Assembly (NCBI GenBank): GCA_002737115.1
Contig: NSHR01000016.1
Coordinates: 564-35,494, forward strand
Length of the DNA: 34,931 bases
Reading direction: 5' to 3'
Origin: Gemmatimonadota bacterium
Lineage (GTDB): Bacteria; Gemmatimonadota; Gemmatimonadetes; Gemmatimonadales; Gemmatimonadaceae
Part shown: piece after piece, positions 7,203 through 32,594 of the stretch
Layout of the letters: the number at the start of each line of letters is the position of its first letter
Position numbering within the stretch: position 1 is the first letter of the stretch
Translations under genes and position numbers: made by a program
Notes under the pieces: model-generated
Told to the model about the DNA's origin: nothing
The model's input: only the letters and a program-made list of their open reading frames with translations
Database searches by the model: none

Positions 7203-7829
7203 CTACTTCGCCCGCGACGAAAGAACGGCGCGAACACCATCGAGCGAGCCACCCACGGCGCGCAGCGCCACCAACGCGTGATAGAGCAGATCTGCGGTCT
7301 CTTCGGTCGCCCGTTCAACGTCGCCGTCCACGCAAGCGGTCGCCAACTCGACCGCTTCTTCGCCGAGTTTCTTTAGTCGAAGGTTGCGGTCGCTAAGCAG
7401 TCGTTGCGTGTAGCTCGTGGTCGTGTCGTCGGTGCGTTGCATGCGCGAGGTGATCGTGGCATCAAGCGTGGCGAACACGTCGGCCTGCAATGCTTCCTCG
7501 CGAAAACACGAGGTTGTTCCATTGTGGCAGGCGGGTCCGGCCGGCACCACGCGCGCGAGGACGGCGTCGGCGTCGCAGTCGGCGGTCAGTGATACGACGC
7601 GCTGCGCGTTGCCGCTCGTGCCACCCTTGTGCCACAAGCCACGTGACCGTGATCGATAGTGCATCTCGCCGGTGCGCATCGTGTATTCGAGCGCCTCGCG
7701 GTCGGCGTGCGCCACCATCAGCACGGCACCGGTGGTCGCGTCTTGCGTCACGATGGTCACGAGCCCACCGCTCTTCGTAAAATCGAGCTGCTCGATGTCG
7801 AACACGACGGCACGCACGGGGTCACTCAT
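7203..7829 (-). CDS. hisIE: Bifunctional phosphoribosyl-AMP cyclohydrolase / phosphoribosyl-ATP pyrophosphohydrolase
   Basis: HisIE carries out steps 2 and 3 of histidine synthesis: removal of pyrophosphate from PR-ATP, then ring opening of PR-AMP. The HisI domain is at about residues 10-115, with MHYRSRSRGLWHKGGTSGN and the metal-binding segments LTADCDADAVL and GPACHNGTTSCF. The HisE domain is at about 120-208, with the helical NLRLKKLGEEAVELATA and ATEETADLLYHALVAL segments. It is the last gene of the his operon, and its ATG overlaps the hisN stop in ATGA (7826-7829). It ends convergently with the M20 peptidase, 4 bases apart. Confidence 0.95.
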   Translation of the reverse strand: MSDPVRAVVFDIEQLDFTKSGGLVTIVTQDATTGAVLMVAHADREALEYTMRTGEMHYRSRSRGLWHKGGTSGNAQRVVSLTADCDADAVLARVVPAGPACHNGTTSCFREEALQADVFATLDATITSRMQRTDDTTTSYTQRLLSDRNLRLKKLGEEAVELATACVDGDVERATEETADLLYHALVALRAVGGSLDGVRAVLSSRAK

Positions 7830-8632
7830 ACGGATACTCCAGCAGCAGGATCAAGAGGCTCGACCAGATATGGCCGAACGATGTCGCCAAGTGCGGCATT
7901 GGTGGCGATGACGTCGCCGCCGAATGCGGTATCACGACCGCGCCAGTCGGTAAAGCGGCCGCCGGCTTCGGTGATCAGCGGATACATTGCGGCGGCGTCC
8001 CATGGATTGACGATGTCATCGATCATGGCCTCGGCGCGGCCGGTGGCGACCAATAGATAGCCGTAACAGTCGCCCCACGTGCGTGCCACCGCCGCGTCCG
8101 CCGACAACGCCTGCCACTTCGCGCGCCGATGCGGACGCTCGAGAAAGCGGTCGTCGGTGATCAACGTGGTGGCATCGCGCAGCTGCGCCACACGCGAGAC
8201 CGAGGCGCGGGATCCATTCCACCAGCAGCCTTCACCAAGCGCGGCGGCTACGGTTTCCTGCACGGCGGGATAGCAGGCCGCACCGGCGATCACGGTATCG
8301 CCCTCGCAGCAGGCGACGAGCGTGCCCCAAAGCGGCACGCCACGCACGAACGCCTTCGTACCATCGATGGGGTCGAGGATCCAGCGGCGGGGCGCATCGC
8401 CGCGTTCGTCGTCGAACTCCTCGCCGAACACGCCGTCGTGCGGAAACCGTTTGGCTAGCCACGCCCGCGCCGCGCGCTCGGCTTCGCGGTCGGCAATCGT
8501 GACCGGCGATCCGTCGCCCTTAATCTCGACCTGCACATCGGTGCGATACCACTGCATCGCGATCGCCGCGGCATACTGCGCCACTTCCGCCGCGGCCTGC
8601 AGCAGCACCGCCGGGCTCTCGGTGCCACTCAT
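7826..8632 (-). CDS. hisN: Histidinol-phosphatase, inositol monophosphatase family
   Basis: This protein dephosphorylates L-histidinol phosphate to histidinol. It is 268 residues long with the Mg-dependent IMPase signatures: GEEFDDERGD, WILDPIDGTKAFVRGVPLWG (metal ligands in DPIDGT) and NPWDAAAMYPLITEAGG near the C terminus. Family membership alone would allow inositol or other sugar phosphates as substrates. Its place between hisF and hisIE, with 4-base overlaps on both sides, argues for the histidinol-phosphate role. It also fills a gap, because the hisB here has only the dehydratase domain. Actinobacteria and some other phyla use the same IMPase-type solution. Confidence 0.92.
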   Translation of the reverse strand: MSGTESPAVLLQAAAEVAQYAAAIAMQWYRTDVQVEIKGDGSPVTIADREAERAARAWLAKRFPHDGVFGEEFDDERGDAPRRWILDPIDGTKAFVRGVPLWGTLVACCEGDTVIAGAACYPAVQETVAAALGEGCWWNGSRASVSRVAQLRDATTLITDDRFLERPHRRAKWQALSADAAVARTWGDCYGYLLVATGRAEAMIDDIVNPWDAAAMYPLITEAGGRFTDWRGRDTAFGGDVIATNAALGDIVRPYLVEPLDPAAGVSV

Positions 8633-9408
8633 GCGGCGATACCGGTGCTCGTGAGCCGCACGGGGAGTCCCGCCTCGCGCATCACCTGCTTGAGCGCCTG
8701 CACCGTGGTCACCCCATCGTGCAGGATGCCCGCCACCAACACCGCGTCGGCGCGGCCCTGCACGATGCCGTCAACCAGATGCTGCGCAACGCCTGCACCG
8801 CCGGAGGCGATCACCGGCACGTGCACGGCGTCAGCCACGGCGCGCGTGATGGCGAGGTCGTATCCAGTGCGCGCCCCGTCGCGATCGATCGACGTGAGCA
8901 GAATCTCTCCGGCGCCACGCGCGACGCACTCCTGCGCCCAGGCCACGGCCTCGAGTGACGTTTCTTCACGCCCGCCCTTCACCCACACCTTGTACACCCC
9001 GTTGGCGTCACGCTTGGCGTCGATACTCGCCACCACGCACTGGGCACCGAACCGCTCGGCCGTTTCGGTGAGCAATTCCGGCCGTGTCACGATGGCCGAA
9101 TTCATCGACACCTTGTCGGCGCCGGCACGCAACGCGTGCGCCACGTCGTCGGCGGTGCGCACGCCGCCGCCGATGGTGAGTGGAATGAACAGACGTTCGG
9201 CGGTGCGACGCGCCACGTCGAGTAGCGTGGCGCGCTCTTCGGCGCTGGCTGAGATATCGAGAAAGGTAATTTCGTCGGCGCCTTCGCGTTCGTACCGCTC
9301 CGATAGCGCCACCGGATCCCCCACGTCGCGTAGCCCTTCGAACTGCACCCCCTTCACCACCCGTGCGCCCTTCACATCGAGGCACACGATGACCCGTCGT
9401 GTCAGCAT
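8629..9408 (-). CDS. hisF: Imidazole glycerol phosphate synthase, cyclase subunit
   Basis: HisF forms IGP and AICAR from PRFAR, using ammonia passed from HisH. It is a 259-residue TIM barrel. The sequence opens with RRVIVCLDVKGARVVKGVQF (catalytic Asp in CLDV), has the phosphate-binding TIGGGVRT and IASGGAG loops, and carries the second catalytic Asp in LLTSIDRDGARTGYD. ATG at 9408 was chosen because it starts right at the conserved N terminus; the frame stays open further upstream. The gap to the hisB stop is 4 bases, the only his junction without an overlap. It overlaps hisN downstream by 4. Confidence 0.95.
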   Translation of the reverse strand: MLTRRVIVCLDVKGARVVKGVQFEGLRDVGDPVALSERYEREGADEITFLDISASAEERATLLDVARRTAERLFIPLTIGGGVRTADDVAHALRAGADKVSMNSAIVTRPELLTETAERFGAQCVVASIDAKRDANGVYKVWVKGGREETSLEAVAWAQECVARGAGEILLTSIDRDGARTGYDLAITRAVADAVHVPVIASGGAGVAQHLVDGIVQGRADAVLVAGILHDGVTTVQALKQVMREAGLPVRLTSTGIAA

Positions 9409-9412
9409 GCGA

Positions 9413-9955
9413 TCACGAGTCCGTAATCTCGAGACGCACGCTGCCCTTCGTGCTGAACACGGCACCCGTTTCCACCAGTGCCTCGCGCAGCGCGAAGCCC
9501 AGCCCCTTGATGGCTGCCTCGATGATGTGGTGCTTGTCGACGCCGCGGATCACGCGCACGTGCAGCGTGGCCTTGGCGTTATCGGCGAACGACCGCAGAA
9601 AGTGCTCATACAGTGTCGACGGCAGCTTGCCCTCGTAGTACGGACGTCCGCCGATGTCGAGCACGACCTGCACCAGCGCGTCGTCCATCGGCACCGTACG
9701 TTCGCCGTAGCGCGCGCAGCCGGCGGGGGCAAAGGCCGCGACCGCCTGACCAAGCGTGATCGCCACGTCTTCGATCAGATGATGGCGCATGTCGCCGGTG
9801 GCCTGCACGCTCAGATCTACGCCCGCGTAGCGCGCGAAGGCCACCAGCATGTGATCGAGGAAGCCGTCGCCGGTGGACACCGTGGCCACACCGGTGCCGG
9901 CGGTGATCGCCAGTCGGATCTGGGTTTCCTTTGATTCGCGAATCACTACGGTCAT
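9413..9955 (-). CDS. hisB: Imidazoleglycerol-phosphate dehydratase (monofunctional)
   Basis: HisB dehydrates imidazole glycerol phosphate to imidazole acetol phosphate. At 180 residues this is the dehydratase alone, with none of the HAD phosphatase domain found in the enterobacterial fusion. Metal-ligand motifs are visible: GDGFLDHMLVAFARY near the start, GDMRHHLIEDVAITLGQA in the middle, and RVIRGVDKHHIIEAAIKGLG near the end. The ATG overlaps the hisA stop (9952-9955). The missing phosphatase step is supplied by hisN in the same operon. Confidence 0.96.
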   Translation of the reverse strand: MTVVIRESKETQIRLAITAGTGVATVSTGDGFLDHMLVAFARYAGVDLSVQATGDMRHHLIEDVAITLGQAVAAFAPAGCARYGERTVPMDDALVQVVLDIGGRPYYEGKLPSTLYEHFLRSFADNAKATLHVRVIRGVDKHHIIEAAIKGLGFALREALVETGAVFSTKGSVRLEITDS

Positions 9956-10665
9956 GCGCCGAACTCCTCTGCAAGACGGCGCGCATCGAGCGCGCCCGTG
10001 TAAAGCGCCATCCCGAGCACTGCACCAGACAGGCCACGGTGTTCAAGCGCACGCATATCATCCAACGACGTCACTCCACCCGAGGCGAACACCGGCCACT
10101 GGCTTGCATCCGCCACATCCTCCATGAGCGGAAGATCGGTGCCTGCCATCAGGCCCTCGCGATGCACGGCGGTGACCAGCACGCCGGCCAGGGGCAGCTG
10201 CGCGAGCTCGGACACAAAATCGATGACATCGATTTGAGAGGTCTCCGCCCAGCCGCGCGTCACCACTTTCCGCTCACGCACATCGGCCGCGATGATGAGG
10301 CGGCCGGGAAACTGCTCGGCCATCTCGCGGCGCCAATCTTCATCCTCGATGGCGCGCGTGCCGATCACCACCCACGAGGCGCCGTCGTCGAGCAGACGTT
10401 CGATACGCGCTTCGTCGCGTACCCCGCCACCGACCTGAATCGGTACCGTAGCATCGCGCAGAATCTCGCGGATCACCTCGTGATTGTGTCCACGCCCAGT
10501 GGCCGCGTCGAGGTCGACCACGTGCAAGCGGGTGAAGCCAATGCGTACCCACTCGGCGGCCACGGCCGCCGGATCATCGAGGCGCACGCGCTCGTCGTTG
10601 TAGTCTCCACCAACCAGCTGAACACACTTACCACTACGTAGATCCACCGCGGGTACAGCAATCAT
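9952..10665 (-). CDS. hisA: 1-(5-phosphoribosyl)-5-[(5-phosphoribosylamino)methylideneamino]imidazole-4-carboxamide isomerase
   Basis: HisA is the TIM-barrel isomerase that converts ProFAR to PRFAR. It is 237 residues long. The N-terminal AVDLRSGKCVQLVGGDY carries the catalytic Asp. IQVGGGVRDEARIERLLDDGA and VFASGGVTSLDDM are the phosphate-binding loops, and a mid-barrel ATGRGHN loop is also present. The start lies in an ATGA overlap with the end of hisH (10662-10665), and its end overlaps hisB. Strong sequence similarity to HisF is expected within the family, but the IPAVDLR-like start and gene order identify it as HisA. Confidence 0.95.
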   Translation of the reverse strand: MIAVPAVDLRSGKCVQLVGGDYNDERVRLDDPAAVAAEWVRIGFTRLHVVDLDAATGRGHNHEVIREILRDATVPIQVGGGVRDEARIERLLDDGASWVVIGTRAIEDEDWRREMAEQFPGRLIIAADVRERKVVTRGWAETSQIDVIDFVSELAQLPLAGVLVTAVHREGLMAGTDLPLMEDVADASQWPVFASGGVTSLDDMRALEHRGLSGAVLGMALYTGALDARRLAEEFGA

Positions 10666-11312
10666 GACGCACTCCTGAGGGAAGCGGCGAACTTCAGGAA
10701 CTCACGCACGAACGCCACGCCAGGGGCACTCGACTTTTCTGGATGGAACTGCGTGCCGATGATGTTGCCGCGTCGAACGGACGCGGGGAAGCGGTCGCCA
10801 TCATGTTCGCTCCATGCGCTCACGAATGGCAGATAGTCGGTGGTGGGACGACAGACGAAGCTGTTAGCGTAATACGCCATCGCGAGCTGTGAGGCCACCA
10901 GCAATGGGTCGGTGATGTCGTCGAGACGGTTCCAGCCGATCTGGGGAATCTGGGTAGCGTGTAGCTTGGTCACCCGACCTTCCAGCACGCCAATGCCACG
11001 CCCCGGACCCTCGTCGCTGCCGTCGAAGAGCAGCTGCATGCCCAGGCAGATGCCGAGCGCCGGCAATCCGGACAACAGCGCGTTGCCCATCACCTCTCGA
11101 CCGGGCGCGAGCCGTTCGGCGGCCGGGGCGAAAGCCCCAACGCCGGGCAGGATGAGGGCGTCGGTGTCGCGCACGGCGCGTATCGGATCGGTTTCCACGT
11201 GCACCACCGCCCCGACCGTTTCGACGGCTTTCACCAGCGAGTGCAGATTGCCGGCACCATAATCGAACACCGTGACCCGTAGCGGCACACGCGATTCTGC
11301 AACGTGCGTCAC
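10662..11312 (-). CDS. hisH: Imidazole glycerol phosphate synthase, glutamine amidotransferase subunit
   Basis: HisH hydrolyses glutamine and channels ammonia to HisF. It is a class I glutamine amidotransferase of 216 residues. The sequence opens at RVTVFDYGAGNLHSLVKA, with the nucleophile Cys in GICLGMQLLFDGS and the His/Glu of the triad in GTQFHPEKSS. The start is taken as GTG at 11312, which forms a GTGA overlap with the hisC stop and matches the other junctions of this operon. A longer form starting at 11375 would overlap hisC by 67 bases and add residues with no family support. Confidence 0.93.
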   Translation of the reverse strand: MTHVAESRVPLRVTVFDYGAGNLHSLVKAVETVGAVVHVETDPIRAVRDTDALILPGVGAFAPAAERLAPGREVMGNALLSGLPALGICLGMQLLFDGSDEGPGRGIGVLEGRVTKLHATQIPQIGWNRLDDITDPLLVASQLAMAYYANSFVCRPTTDYLPFVSAWSEHDGDRFPASVRRGNIIGTQFHPEKSSAPGVAFVREFLKFAASLRSAS

Positions 11313-12394
11313 GCCGACCTCCGTGTGGTCATCACCGCATCGAACGCCGCGAGAAAGCGCTCGAGCAGCGGCCACGGTCCAACGCTGATGCGCAACGCGT
11401 CACCGATGTGTGGCAGTCCGGGGAAGGGCCGGACCGCCACCCCCATTTCGCGCAGGGCGAGTCCGACGTTCACACAGTCCGGTACCGGCACGCAGACGAA
11501 ATTCGCATGCGACTCCAGTGGGGCGAATCCGCGCGTACGCAGCTCGCTGGCCAGCCGCTCGCGCAGCGTGACGGCCAGCGCGATGTGCTCGTTCACCCAC
11601 GGCATGTCGTGCTGCAACGCCGCGAGCGCCGTCTGTTCGGCCATCGCGTTCAACTTGTACGGTCCGCGCGACTTCTCCACTTCCATGACCAGCGATGGCT
11701 GTCCGATGGCGTAGCCGATGCGCAGCCCTGCCAGTCCGAATGCCTTCGACATCGTGCGGATCACCAGCAACCGGTCGTACTGCTTGACCAGATCGACCGA
11801 CGACACGCCCGCGAACTCGGCGTATGCCTCATCGAGAAACACCACGCCCGGCGCGTCGCGCAGCGCGCGCTCGATGGTGTCGCGGGCCAGCAGCGCCCCG
11901 GTGGGATTGTTCGGCGAGCAGAGGTACAGCAGCTTCGGCTTCGTGGCGAGCAGGGCATCGATGTCGGGCTGATTCGACGGGCGTTCCATGCACCCGGCGT
12001 ACGCGAGTGCATTCATACGCGCGAAGATCGGAATCATCGCAAACGACGGCTCCGGTCCTGCCACGAGATCGCCCGGTTCGCCGAACGCGCGCATCGCGCT
12101 GTCGAGAATGTCATCAGATCCACAGCCGGTCACGATCATGTCCGCCGTCACGCCCACGTACTCGGCCAGCGCCTGCTTGAGCTCCGCCGCGTACAGCGTG
12201 GGATAGCGCGTGATGCGCGACACCGGCATTTCGCGCCACGTGCGCTCGGCGACCGGTGGCATCCCCCACAGATTCGTGTTGTCAGTGAGATCGAGATCGA
12301 CCGGTGCGCGCTTCGGATCGTACAGCGGCACGGCATCGTACGCCGCGCGTGCCACGACCAGGCGTTGGGAATTATCCGTTGTGCGTTCGCTCAT
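11309..12394 (-). CDS. hisC: Histidinol-phosphate aminotransferase
   Basis: HisC is the PLP enzyme that transaminates imidazole acetol phosphate to L-histidinol phosphate. It is 361 residues long and fold-type I. The substrate segment DLTDNTNLWGMPP is at the N terminus, PNNPTGALL and FLDEAYAEF follow, and the PLP Lys sits in RTMSKAFGLAGLRIGYAIG. A conserved Arg occurs in the C-terminal ISVGPW region. ATG at 12394 gives an ATGA overlap with hisD; a frame extension to 12520 would lie wholly inside hisD and was rejected. Confidence 0.95.
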   Translation of the reverse strand: MSERTTDNSQRLVVARAAYDAVPLYDPKRAPVDLDLTDNTNLWGMPPVAERTWREMPVSRITRYPTLYAAELKQALAEYVGVTADMIVTGCGSDDILDSAMRAFGEPGDLVAGPEPSFAMIPIFARMNALAYAGCMERPSNQPDIDALLATKPKLLYLCSPNNPTGALLARDTIERALRDAPGVVFLDEAYAEFAGVSSVDLVKQYDRLLVIRTMSKAFGLAGLRIGYAIGQPSLVMEVEKSRGPYKLNAMAEQTALAALQHDMPWVNEHIALAVTLRERLASELRTRGFAPLESHANFVCVPVPDCVNVGLALREMGVAVRPFPGLPHIGDALRISVGPWPLLERFLAAFDAVMTTRRSA

Positions 12395-13725
12395 TCGCTC
12401 ACTCTCCACGCGCGTGCGGCCGCGGCGTGCGCCGGCAACCCTTCGGCATCGGCGAAGGCACCGACGTCGTGCGCAAGACTGGCGGCGGCCGCCGGCGATA
12501 CTTCCTGCCACGTGGTCCACCGCACGAAATCCAGCGTGGACAGACCCGAGTAACTGCGTGCCGCACCAGCCGTGGGCAGCACATGGTTCGCGCCGGTCAT
12601 GTAATCACCAAACGCCACCGAACTCGACTCGCCCACGAAGATCGTGCCGGCGCTGCGCAACGCCGCGAGCGTATCGGCACGCACCGCGGCATCAACCACG
12701 AGCAGCAGGTGCTCTGCCGCCCATTCATTGGAGAACGCCACGCCATCGGCGATCGAGGTCACCGACACGATCGCGCCGCGCGCGGCCAGCGACTCGCGCA
12801 CGATCTGCGCCCGCGGGGCCCGGGCGATTTGGGCGAGGGTCTCGACTTCCAGCGCATCGGAGAGCGCCGAGACCTGCGCCGCCGTGCCAACCAACACGGC
12901 CATCACGGCCGCGTCGGGGTCGTGCTCGGCTTGTGCCATCAGCTCGCGCGCCAGCGCGGTCGGGTTGGCGGTGTGGTCGGCCAGGATCAGCAGTTCGCTG
13001 GGGCCGGCCGGGGAATCGATCGCCACGTCGGCCACCAACTGCAGCTTGGCTTCGGCCACGAACGCGTTGCCCGGACCCATGATCCGGTCTACCCGCGGCA
13101 CGGTCGCGGTACCAATCGCCATGGCGGCGATCGCACCGGCTCCGCCCAGGGCGAACACTCGGTCCACGCCCGCTAAGGCGGCGGCGGCCAGCACGACCGG
13201 CGACGGCAGCCCATCGGGGCCCGGCGGCGAACAAACCACCACCTCACCCACCCCAGCCACTCGGGCCGGGATTGCGCCCATGAGGAGTGAGCTCGGATAG
13301 GCGGCCCGTCCGCCCGGCGCGTAAATCCCGACGCGTCCGAGCGGGTCCGGGCGCCGTCCCACGCGGATGCCGGGTTCGGGCGAGCACTCGGTGGCCACCG
13401 GGCGGAAGGCCTCGTGCACGGCGGCAATGTTGCGGGCCGACCGCTCGAGCACACGACGTAACTCCGGATCCAGCGCCGCCAGCGCCGCGTCCCATGTCGC
13501 GCGCGGCACTTCGATGGCCGGCAGTTCGACCCGATCGAACTCACGGGCGAAGGCGACGAGCGCGGCATCGCCTTCTTCGCGAACGCGAGCGATAATCGCA
13601 GTCGTTCGGCTACGAACGGTCGCGTCGCCGGTTGACGAGCGATCGACGATGGCCCGACGGGTCGCGGCATCGAGGGCCGCGAGCGGTCCGCGCGCCCGCA
13701 GCCCAAGCGCAGAGGCGGTGGTCAC
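12391..13725 (-). CDS. hisD: Histidinol dehydrogenase
   Basis: HisD is the zinc enzyme that oxidises L-histidinol to L-histidine in two NAD-dependent steps, the last of the pathway. It is 444 residues long. Visible motifs are GRVGIYAPGGRAAYPSSLLM, RIMGPGNAFVAEAKLQL, the substrate loop DSPAGPSELLILADHTANP, AQAEHDPDA, and GANHVLPTAGAARSYSGLS near the C terminus. The GTG at 13725 overlaps the hisG stop (13722-13725). The frame is open for a further 609 bases upstream, to 14334, but that stretch is antisense-free shadow inside hisG in another frame and has no family match. Confidence 0.96.
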   Translation of the reverse strand: MTTASALGLRARGPLAALDAATRRAIVDRSSTGDATVRSRTTAIIARVREEGDAALVAFAREFDRVELPAIEVPRATWDAALAALDPELRRVLERSARNIAAVHEAFRPVATECSPEPGIRVGRRPDPLGRVGIYAPGGRAAYPSSLLMGAIPARVAGVGEVVVCSPPGPDGLPSPVVLAAAALAGVDRVFALGGAGAIAAMAIGTATVPRVDRIMGPGNAFVAEAKLQLVADVAIDSPAGPSELLILADHTANPTALARELMAQAEHDPDAAVMAVLVGTAAQVSALSDALEVETLAQIARAPRAQIVRESLAARGAIVSVTSIADGVAFSNEWAAEHLLLVVDAAVRADTLAALRSAGTIFVGESSSVAFGDYMTGANHVLPTAGAARSYSGLSTLDFVRWTTWQEVSPAAAASLAHDVGAFADAEGLPAHAAAARAWRVSE

Positions 13726-14600
13726 GGCACGAGCCTTTCGATACGGGTCACGAGGATGCCTTCGCCGCCGAGGGCTCGGAGTTGCGAGATGGTGCGATAG
13801 ATCGTGTCGGCGCTGACCACGGCGTGCACGGCCACGTACTTCCCGTGGTCGGCGATCTCGATGACCGTCGGCCCGTTGAGGCCGGGGAGCACGGCGCGCA
13901 CCTCTTCGAGCGCCGCGCGCGGCACGTTGGCCATGAGATAACGCTGGCCGCGGGCCCGGATCACCGATCCGAGGGCGGTGACCAAGTCGTTCAGCTCCTG
14001 CAGGCGCGACGGATCGCCGTTGCGCGGGCCGTTGATCGCCGTGACGAGATGGGCGCTCGACTTCATGACCGTCTCGATCTCCCGTAGCCCGTTCATCTTG
14101 AGCGTCGAGCCGGTCGACGTGAGATCGACGACGATGTCGGCGATCCCTAAGTGGGGCGCGATTTCGGCGGCTCCGGACACCGGGACGACGTCCACGGGGC
14201 GACCACGCGACTCGAAAAAGGTGCGCGTGATGCGCGGGAAGACCGTGGCCACGCGGGCCGCCTTTCCGTCGGCGCTGATGTCCTCGATGGAGCGAATGCC
14301 CGAGTCGTCCTTGGCGGCAACCACGAGGCGGCACTTGCCGAACCCGAGGTCAAGGTGTGAGCGGAGGTCGCGCCCCGACTCCTTGACCAGGTCCATCCCG
14401 GTCACACCCACATCGGCGGCGCCGTCGGCCACGAACTCCGGGATATCCTGGGCGCGGACGAAGATGGCTTCGAACTCTCCCCCCAGGGAGGCCGTGAGGG
14501 CGCGCTCCCCCGATGAGCGGACCTCGAGTCCGGCGTCGTTGAACAGCTCACGGGTGTCTTCACTTAGGCGCCCTTTGTTGGGCAGCGCGATTCGTAGCAT
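13722..14600 (-). CDS. hisG: ATP phosphoribosyltransferase, long form
   Basis: HisG joins ATP and PRPP, the first and controlled step of histidine synthesis. At 292 residues it is the long form: catalytic lobes with NKGRLSEDTRELFNDAGL and ADVGVTGMDLVKESG, the PRPP-binding DLTSTGSTLKMNGL, and a C-terminal ACT-like regulatory domain ending VSADTIYRTISQLRALGGEGILVTRIERL. Long HisG enzymes are feedback-inhibited by histidine and do not need HisZ. ATG at 14600 is the family start. No Shine-Dalgarno is evident just upstream. The attenuator hairpin ends 28 bases before the start codon, so expression is probably set by read-through there. Confidence 0.96.
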   Translation of the reverse strand: MLRIALPNKGRLSEDTRELFNDAGLEVRSSGERALTASLGGEFEAIFVRAQDIPEFVADGAADVGVTGMDLVKESGRDLRSHLDLGFGKCRLVVAAKDDSGIRSIEDISADGKAARVATVFPRITRTFFESRGRPVDVVPVSGAAEIAPHLGIADIVVDLTSTGSTLKMNGLREIETVMKSSAHLVTAINGPRNGDPSRLQELNDLVTALGSVIRARGQRYLMANVPRAALEEVRAVLPGLNGPTVIEIADHGKYVAVHAVVSADTIYRTISQLRALGGEGILVTRIERLVP

Positions 14601-14627
14601 GACGGTCTGGGAAAAGAGAGCAGGACT

Positions 14628-14663
14628 GAAAAAACAAACGGCCCGTCCGGAAGGGACGGGCCG
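14628..14663 (-). terminator. Intrinsic terminator / attenuator in the his leader
   Basis: On the minus strand a perfect 10-bp stem, CGGCCCGTCC paired with GGACGGGCCG, closes a 5-base loop (CTTCC). It is followed at once by TTTGTTTTTT. This is a textbook intrinsic terminator placed between the His-rich leader ORF and hisG, 28 bases before the hisG start codon. It would stop transcription before the structural genes unless an alternative fold prevents it. The 5' arm (14663-14656) is complementary to leader bases 14736-14729. Confidence 0.92.
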
Positions 14664-14703
14664 AGGATCGCTTGGGTGCTTCGGGATCAGCGAGCTGTGC
14701 TGG

Positions 14704-14781
14704 TCACCGTGGCATACACGAAGCGCCCCGACCCGTATGGCCGTGGCTGCGATGCGCATGGTGGTGGCTGACGCTCTGCAT
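14704..14781 (-). CDS. hisL: His operon leader peptide
   Basis: This is a 25-codon ORF from ATG at 14781 to TGA at 14704. It begins MQSVSHHHAHRSHGH, so six of residues 6-15 are His (codons CAC, CAC, CAT, CAT, CAC, CAT). An in-frame TAG at 14796-14794 means this ATG is the only start. No Shine-Dalgarno precedes it; the predicted transcription start is at or 3 bases before the ATG. It lies upstream of a strong intrinsic terminator and then hisG, on the same strand. This is how the enterobacterial hisL senses charged tRNA-His: stalling at the His codons lets transcription continue. The peptide itself shares only the His run with the E. coli one. Confidence 0.88.
   Translation of the reverse strand: MQSVSHHHAHRSHGHTGRGASCMPR
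14729..14736 (-). promoter_or_regulatory. Candidate antiterminator arm in the his leader RNA
   Basis: Minus-strand ACGGGTCG (Thr16-Gly17-Arg18 codons of the leader peptide) can pair with CGGCCCGT, the 5' arm of the attenuator at 14663-14656, in 8 pairs with one G-U. A ribosome held at the first four His codons (His6-His10) would leave this segment free, so the pairing could form and disrupt the terminator. The complementarity is read directly; the switching role is inference. A competing helix is also possible between GCTTCG (14724-14719) and CGAAGC (14683-14678). Confidence 0.55.
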
Positions 14782-14790
14782 AATGAACGG

Positions 14791-14819
14791 AGGCTAGCGG
14801 AGGCCCAGACGCCCGTCAA
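14791..14819 (-). promoter_or_regulatory. Promoter of the his operon
   Basis: On the minus strand a -35 box TTGACG (14819-14814) and a -10 box TAGCCT (14796-14791) are exactly 17 bases apart. Seven bases further is A14784, and ten further is A14781, the first base of the leader ATG. The transcript would therefore begin with ATTATG or ATG and be leaderless, which agrees with the absence of a ribosome-binding site for the leader ORF. The -10 box keeps the key TA...T bases. Confidence 0.65.
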
Positions 14820-14856
14820 GGAGGAAAAATCGGAGGGCCCTTGGCGTTGGACGGGC

Positions 14857-14874
14857 TTGTGAATAACTTCACAA
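14857..14874. promoter_or_regulatory. CRP/FNR-family-like operator
   Basis: The 18-base sequence TTGTGAATAACTTCACAA is a perfect inverted repeat, 7 bases plus a 4-base centre plus 7 bases. It contains the exact CRP consensus TGTGA-N6-TCACA at 14858-14873. It is AT-rich in a GC-rich setting and sits between the his promoter and the cupredoxin gene. Its centre (14865.5) is about 81 bases upstream of the predicted his start and about 91 bases before the cupredoxin ATG. It could serve either gene. No regulator gene is in the window. Confidence 0.6.
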
Positions 14875-14956
14875 TGCTCGTAGGGCCCTACGGGTACAGG
14901 ATTCGTCCTGTCGAATGGTAAAAATTTTCGATCAGGCTCACAGGAGGCCTCTCGAC

Positions 14957-15457
14957 ATGCGGTTTCTCGGCTTTGCAGTGGTAACTGGCGCGGCAATCAT
15001 GCTCGGCGCTTGCGGTGGAGAGAAGGCAGCCACGACGGATTCGGCGGCGGCTCCGGCGGCTGAAGCAGCAGCGGCTCCGGCCGAAGCGGCTCCGGCGGCC
15101 GGCGCGATGGCCCCGATCACGGGCACGACGCACGAAATCAAGATGATCGGCGACGGCGCTGGCTACCGTTTCGAGCCGGCCAACCTCACGGTTGCGGCTG
15201 GCGACGGCGTCAAGTTCACGTTGGTCAGCGGTGGCCCGCACAACGTGGCGTTCGACGGCGCGGCGATCCCGGCGGCCGGCAAGGCGGCCCTCATGGCCAA
15301 CATGCCGGAGCAGGCTGGTGAGTTGTCGGGCAAGATGATGCTCAACGCCGACGAGAGCTACACGGTCTCGTTCGCGGGCGTCGCGGCTGGTGACTACCCG
15401 TACTTCTGCACGCCGCACCTTGCCATGAACATGAAGGGCGTGATCACGGTCAAGTAA
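14957..15457 (+). CDS. Cupredoxin (plastocyanin-like) lipoprotein
   Basis: This is a 166-residue blue-copper electron carrier anchored outside the cytoplasmic membrane. Residues 1-19 are a lipoprotein signal with lipobox LGAC (Cys19 would be lipidated). An Ala/Pro-rich linker runs to about 52. The cupredoxin domain carries the type 1 copper ligands H95 (GGPHNV), C151, H154 and M159 in YFCTPHLAMNMKGVITV; the C-x2-H-x4-M spacing matches plastocyanin. ATG at 14957 is preceded by AGGAGG at 14942-14947, one of the few clear Shine-Dalgarno sequences here, so the upstream in-frame start at 14915 is rejected. A strong terminator follows. The CRP/FNR-like site upstream suggests control by respiratory or metabolic state. 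Confidence 0.9.
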   Translation: MRFLGFAVVTGAAIMLGACGGEKAATTDSAAAPAAEAAAAPAEAAPAAGAMAPITGTTHEIKMIGDGAGYRFEPANLTVAAGDGVKFTLVSGGPHNVAFDGAAIPAAGKAALMANMPEQAGELSGKMMLNADESYTVSFAGVAAGDYPYFCTPHLAMNMKGVITVK

Positions 15458-32523: not shown

Positions 32524-32594
32524 AGGCGCCGGTCGGAATCGAACCGACGGTGGGAGATTTGCAGTCTCCTGCCTTACCACTTGGCGACGGCGCC
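32524..32594 (-). tRNA. tRNA-Cys (GCA)
   Basis: The minus strand folds into a full cloverleaf of 71 bases. The acceptor stem is GGCGCCG with CGGCGCC, the D stem GCC with GGC, the anticodon stem GGAGA with TCTCC holding loop CTGCAAA (anticodon GCA), and the T stem GTCGG with CCGAC holding TTCGATT. The discriminator base is U, the known identity base for cysteine. CCA is not encoded. The gene runs toward the shared terminator at 32440-32478. Confidence 0.97.

Follow-up and report, generated by a model that had tools for sequence, protein, structure and literature searches.

A short leader region upstream of hisG is predicted to control the histidine (his) operon of a Gemmatimonadota bacterium by ribosome-mediated transcription attenuation. 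It lies on the reverse strand of a 34,931 nucleotide (nt) stretch of DNA, here called the window (assembly GCA_002737115.1, contig NSHR01000016.1, positions 564–35,494), which is contig 8 of genome G000 (completeness 57%). All of the evidence is comparative, and the probability of this reading is put at about 0.88. The leader consists of a short open reading frame (ORF) with a run of His codons, an antiterminator arm located inside that ORF and an intrinsic terminator (Table 1).

The leader ORF begins with an ATG at 14781–14779, ends with a TGA at 14706–14704 and translates as MQSVSHHHAHRSHGHTGRGASCMPR. Its 25 codons, with six His in residues 6–15, are as described in the initial annotation of this DNA. 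It is the only one of 393 short ORFs (10–80 codons, both strands of the whole window) that has six His in ten codons, and on this ground it is not a chance ORF. With His at 1.9% of the codons in seven window ORFs, the binomial probability of six or more His in ten codons is about 9e-9. The short ORF thus carries a run of codons for the amino acid that is made by its own operon.

An intrinsic terminator is present between the leader ORF and the first gene. The hairpin, CGGCCCGTCC-CTTCC-GGACGGGCCG (14663–14639), begins 40 bases past the end of the ORF (14704), and 28 bases separate the end of the U-tract from the ATG of hisG (14600). The perfect 10-bp stem, the U-tract and the distance to hisG had all been annotated in this form. 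They are confirmed by the sequence and by a terminator scan of positions 14400–15100, which shows three sites vs 0.5 in shuffled sequences; two of these represent the hairpin at 14663–14639 and a part of the same hairpin.

Relatives were gathered through HisG similarity and not by their leaders, hence the leaders are not selected. A total of 79 distinct upstream regions was kept from 111 hisG loci, after removal of duplicates, reverse-oriented loci, loci with hisG cut at the start and those with less than 250 nt upstream. By record names, the 79 regions span Gemmatimonadota, Myxococcota and Candidatus Eiseniibacteriota. A His-rich ORF (at least four His in ten codons) is found in all 79, with seven His per ten codons in 9 regions, six in 54, five in 14 and four in 2. 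A simple terminator is found in 75/79, and the other four regions (L103, L107, L108 and L109) have bulged terminators. Conservation of the His codons and the hairpin in relatives was one of the points on which the initial annotation had staked its proposal beforehand, and it is evident here. The covarying terminator pairs that it had pointed to are present as well: alignments of hisG upstream regions have 13 cells with both sides changed, compared with a shuffled mean of 5.2, and 0/500 shuffles are as high. Alignment A1 consists of the window and 31 relatives chosen for difference, with L065, L072, L075 and L102 left out.

More distant genera preserve the attenuator logic with different letters. 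At least four His in ten codons are found in 11/18 more distant hisG upstream regions. L124–L128 precede HisG proteins that are 33–37% identical to that of the window, and their terminators are unrelated to the window's. In L125, L126 and L128, which precede a different HisG branch, the logic is the same but the arms and terminators differ, e.g., in L128 the arm GCCCCGGCCGGAG is opposite the terminator CCCCGGGG. The scan found no terminator in L112 and L127, two of the 11 distant His-rich regions. The suggestion that a hisL-like ribosome-stalling logic operates in the window is supported by the His run and terminator counts given above, and by the same logic in different letters in distant genera.

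The antiterminator helix has 20 pairs with bulges, and three of the pairs are G-U or U-G. It is formed by positions 14736–14726 with 14666–14656, 14725–14721 with 14673–14669 and 14719–14716 with 14679–14676. The eight pairs between 14736–14729 and 14663–14656 (one of them G-U), which were all that had been noted at first, do exist, but they are an incomplete part of this longer helix. The antiterminator and the terminator are mutually exclusive through their shared bases. Complementarity to the terminator arm equal to that of the window leader is reached in 0.5% of its codon shuffles. In 49/76 leaders (i.e., the 75 loci with a simple terminator and the window), the leader-terminator duplex is equalled by fewer than 5% of codon shuffles. 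The mean duplex over the 76 leaders is 22 pairs and starts a median of 5 nt past the last His codon. The codons that follow the His run in relatives, often reading HGPTGRG, contain the antiterminator arm. When arms are swapped between leaders, a leader's own arm gives better pairing than the average foreign arm in 54 of 67 distinct leaders. For the loop-proximal part, the own partner beats the mean foreign partner in 48 of 65 distinct leaders (permutation 0/2000, with relatedness still in the test).

Ribosome positions were modeled with a footprint that reached 14 nt upstream and 12 nt downstream of the first P-site base; the RNA ended with the terminator 5' arm. The antiterminator in this folding model is above 0.5 with the ribosome at the first His in 67/76 leaders, at the third His in 74/76 and at the last His in 52/76. 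No arm pair is covered in any of the 76 leaders while the ribosome sits at the first His, and at least four are covered in 64/76 when it is at the stop. In the model, the antiterminator excludes the terminator and is free with the ribosome on the control codons. The core of the window antiterminator is at 0.95 with the ribosome on codons 6–10, 0.87 on codon 13, 0.01 on codon 15, 0.00–0.03 on codons 17–23, 0.83 on codon 25 and 0.77 at the stop. A wider footprint gives 0.66 on codon 13, 0.46 on codon 25 and 0.97 at the stop. The loop-proximal part is at 0.00 for every ribosome position from codon 17 to the stop. As a working hypothesis from the folding model, a stall at an early His codon gives the ON structure, and the OFF structure can arise either because a moving ribosome masks the arm or because a ribosome at the stop covers the loop-proximal part.

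In the mechanism that we infer (as regards where transcription starts, the stalling of the ribosome and the timing behind the OFF state alike), transcription would start within a few bases of the leader AUG and a ribosome would load on the tip of the nascent RNA. When His-tRNA is scarce, the ribosome would wait on the His codons and leave the arm at 14736–14716 free. The free arm would then pair with 14679–14656 as this strand exits the polymerase, the terminator 5' arm would be taken and hisG would be transcribed. When His-tRNA is ample, the ribosome would cross the arm (codons 15–23) and continue to the stop as the hairpin is being transcribed. With the arm masked, or with its loop-proximal nucleation part covered, the terminator would close at the U-tract and transcription would end.

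Several results weigh against this reading. Codon shuffles are not beaten at the 5% level in 27/76 leaders, and against dinucleotide shuffles of the spacer only 16/65 reach that level. The antiterminator core is nearly invariant across aligned relatives and its covariation signal is weak, with 84.8% paired vs 83.0% when shuffled and 22/500 shuffles as high. The antiterminator is still above 0.5 in 38/76 leaders with the ribosome at the stop and in 33/76 with no ribosome. In the window, the core stays at 0.77–0.97 with a static ribosome at the stop and at 0.95 with none, and the full-length RNA favours the terminator at all ribosome positions tried. In addition, 7/18 of the more distant hisG genes have no leader (at most three His in ten codons); by reading, these seven regions look like coding sequence of an upstream gene. 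Equilibrium folding as the sole cause of the switch is ruled out by the behaviour of the full-length RNA. Since a static ribosome at the stop, or no ribosome, would also leave the window RNA ON until the 3' arm has been made, timing must decide. In the model, the arm is masked with the ribosome at codons 15–23, yet the helix can reform with the ribosome at the stop, and the OFF state therefore probably rests on timing together with masking of the arm.

Another route to the OFF state, the 1:2 scheme of textbooks, would be a dedicated protector helix that catches the arm whenever no ribosome is present or the ribosome has reached the stop. It is considered unlikely for the window although parts of the comparison fit it. 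In 46/76 cases, the leader segment that ends just beyond the stop is more stably folded than its shuffled versions (z below -1.5, mean -1.92 over relatives), and about half of the leaders have the antiterminator below 0.5 when no ribosome is present. A leader hairpin is thus likely in many relatives. It is not likely in the window, where z is -0.6 and the antiterminator core, as stated above, stays high without a ribosome. One form of such a helix, 14724–14719 with 14683–14678, had been put forward as a competitor of the antiterminator. Its six pairs exist, but it is complete in only 5/9 anchored sequences (the window, L003, L007, L033 and L034), and the other four have five pairs (L004 and L035), four (L010) or three (L042). 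It is only partly conserved and uses antiterminator bases, and as an OFF device it is rejected.

A promoter-like sequence is found immediately upstream of the leader ORF and its spacing would place the transcription start near 14784–14781. The leader is probably leaderless, i.e., the transcript would begin at or near the start codon, as judged by this promoter spacing. A TANNNT box approximately 12 bp before the start is a published sign of bacterial leaderless genes, according to the available excerpts of that paper (PMC3160421). The alternative is an ordinary 5' untranslated leader ahead of the attenuator, with the -10-like box near the ATG not representing the promoter in use. This is improbable. 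A standard sigma-70 promoter scan reported no site, and 17/76 leaders miss the spacing rule, which agrees with that alternative. However, the other 59 leaders, window included, have TTGAC, 16–18 nt, NANNNT, 5–11 nt and an in-frame start (47 ATG and 12 GTG), an arrangement that would place the transcription start at the start codon, vs 0.13% of shuffled 5' regions. The same spacing is present ahead of the distant leaders L113, L114, L115, L125, L126 and L128, and a -10-like box at such a distance precedes 6/7 of the Tyr leaders described below.

It is very improbable that the hairpin merely ends upstream transcription and that the His-rich ORF either stays untranslated or encodes just an ordinary small protein. 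Terminators ahead of genes are common, but this hairpin lies downstream of the promoter-like site and upstream of hisG, all on one strand, and the neighbouring gene beyond the promoter-like site is oriented divergently. The codons directly past the His run pair with the terminator arm, and the run (79/79), the arm (in the 76 leaders analysed) and the terminator (75/79) are kept together.

Table 1. Parts of the predicted his attenuator and the operon downstream of it (window positions).
Feature	Position	Strand	Remarks and basis
-35-like hexamer TTGACG	14814..14819	-	17 nt ahead of -10 box; sequence and conservation
-10-like hexamer TAGCCT	14791..14796	-	ends 9 nt before leader ATG; sequence and conservation
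Leader peptide ORF, 25 codons and stop	14704..14781	-	probably leaderless; sequence, conservation, promoter spacing
Control codons, residues 6–15, six His	14737..14766	-	sequence; His run in 79/79 relatives
Antiterminator 5' strand, inside ORF	14716..14736	-	core 14736–14726; loop-proximal 14725–14721, 14719–14716
Antiterminator 3' strand, overlaps terminator 5' arm	14656..14679	-	14679–14676, 14673–14669, 14666–14656
Intrinsic terminator hairpin, 10 pairs, loop of 5	14639..14663	-	terminator scan, covariation, folding
U-tract of terminator	14629..14638	-	sequence TTTGTTTTTT
hisG (long form, C-terminal domain present), the first gene under control	13722..14600	-	
Rest of his operon: hisD, hisC, hisH, hisA, hisB, hisF, hisN, hisIE	7203..13721	-	hisD start not resolved

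The his genes downstream of the leader are presumably co-transcribed, as suggested by gene order and strand. hisC and hisB are the best matches for their genes, but the scores are under the NCBIfam cut-offs. The closest HisG matches among named records are from Gemmatimonas and other Gemmatimonadota. The window HisG has an amino acid identity of 70–73% with Corallococcus; within its own order, the identity is 66% with two genera but as low as 33–48% with many others. A joint transfer of long-form hisG and its leader between phyla is possible; the HisG tree speaks neither for nor against it. Two records titled Kuenenia and Comamonas (L046 and L084) have HisG sequences that place among Gemmatimonadaceae and Myxococcaceae, and are probably mislabelled or contaminated. 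A plastocyanin-like gene (14915–15457, + strand; TIGR02656, below its cut-off) is divergent from the his leader, and a tRNA gene is located at 32524–32594 (- strand).

A covariance model (R1) built from 32 leaders has matches in 166/249 Gemmatimonadota genomes at E ≤ 0.01, the weak end of which includes chance matches; by a hand count, 78/249 genomes have a match at 1e-8 or better. Forty matches, chosen by hand and mostly weaker or second matches, were inspected, and by reading they represent 28 His leaders, seven Tyr leaders and five that are neither. Of these further His leaders, 27/28 precede hisG and L151 precedes an aminotransferase gene. L151 (position 21806, before a hisC-like aminotransferase gene) and L150 (position 12292, before hisG) are near-identical His leaders about 9.5 kb apart on contig 210 of genome G125. 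The arrangement would fit duplication of the attenuator in a his operon that has split.

The seven Tyr leaders are L152, L153, L154, L155, L157, L176 and L183; an example of their peptides is MNVGAATYFYYYYRTPVTGRGGRG. In all seven, the arm can pair with the 5' arm of the terminator, and in 6/7 the start is 6–7 nt past a TANNNT box. L155, L157, L176 and L183 precede DAHP synthase genes, and L152 and L153 precede genes for a biopterin-dependent aromatic amino acid hydroxylase, as determined by a Pfam scan that covered these six loci; the L154 ORF reads like that of L155. A survey of 30 DAHP synthase loci of relatives left 16 without an anchor, including that of the window's own genome (L219). 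A Tyr run is found in 7/14 anchored loci (L196, L198, L204, L205, L206, L209 and L210); four of these seven belong to the same genus as the window. In L209 and L210, Tyr codons alternate with Trp codons or are otherwise mixed with them in the run, and no terminator was found at L196.

Other amino acid genes were surveyed as well, with the family match taken as the gene start. A Trp-rich ORF together with a terminator was found before trpE in 0/30 loci (420 nt before the match); four loci have Trp pairs in an ORF and one has a weak terminator. The pattern is therefore not general to upstream regions. Among eight leuA loci read from 29 matches, L256 has a Leu-rich ORF and a terminator, L255 a terminator only and L257 a Leu-rich ORF only. 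L255 and L256, from two genomes of another family, have terminators of the form GCCGCGAACC...GGTTCGCGGC with a T-tract before leuA. The combination in L256 is a possible Leu attenuator. The trpE and leuA loci do not bear out the idea that these genomes commonly control amino acid genes by attenuation. A common attenuator chassis in Gemmatimonadota and some neighbours can be proposed tentatively, at somewhat less than even odds. It would consist of a leaderless ORF with an internal antiterminator arm (TGRG codons) in which the control codons are exchanged between His and Tyr. The OFF state, at least in the window's clade, would be made by a ribosome moving over the arm and not by a protector hairpin, and the leaderless start would fix the distance between ribosome and polymerase.

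The window leader resembles gammaproteobacterial hisL in that there is a run of His codons in a short ORF, a terminator with a U-tract before hisG and an alternative pairing that removes the terminator arm. It differs from hisL (Rfam RF00514, His_leader) in sequence, in the presence of the arm inside the ORF just past the His codons, in its apparently leaderless start and in having no strong leader hairpin. RF00514 has no match in the window and none in 13 loci up to E 5. It is over its cut-off in 0/41 genomes, where a sub-threshold match in G037 is a plain terminator by reading. Among 14 control genomes there are matches in two (Escherichia coli and Corynebacterium glutamicum), one of them over the cut-off. 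Membership of the Rfam family is rejected, as the gathering cut-off is not reached. According to the excerpts available, the amino acid attenuator motifs that Rfam contained at the time may stem from gammaproteobacteria (PMC3766115).

The following comparisons are with published systems as described in the available portions of the papers. Apart from ermC, leader-peptide systems had been demonstrated only in Proteobacteria and Actinobacteria until a 2010 study added Firmicutes, with His-leader attenuators ahead of hisS/hisZ in bacilli (PMC2965389). Attenuators of his genes are described in the Bacillus cereus group, Erysipelotrichales and Peptostreptococcaceae (PMC9413887), and leader peptides precede trpE, leuA, ilvB and aroF in C. 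glutamicum (PMC3890552). The Firmicutes His leaders share with the window leader a peptide with His codons, a terminator and an antiterminator. By their descriptions they are set apart from it in that they belong to another phylum, and those portions do not mention a leaderless start for them. A leaderless start is not new by itself, as it has been described for trpL in Sinorhizobium meliloti (PMC7298713) and for several leaders in Streptomyces lividans (PMC8079986). In these, too, the leader ORF starts at the 5' end of the transcript or close to it, and several have a terminator downstream. Unlike the window leader they concern other amino acids and phyla, and their starts come from transcript data and not from promoter spacing.

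No His leader with a leaderless start is among the literature matches listed, and no his attenuator in Gemmatimonadota or Myxococcota, although the surveys by Vitreschak and by the Lyubetsky group could hold such a prediction. The window element is thus a predicted case of a known mechanism and appears to be a new leaderless variant of it. A predicted His attenuator of unrelated sequence is present across much of Gemmatimonadota and in two other phyla, an argument that this type of control has a wider origin or arose repeatedly. If the leaderless start is true, this would be a natural attenuator that loads its ribosome without a Shine-Dalgarno leader, in the window also without a strong leader hairpin, and the role of ribosome-polymerase timing would be directly testable.
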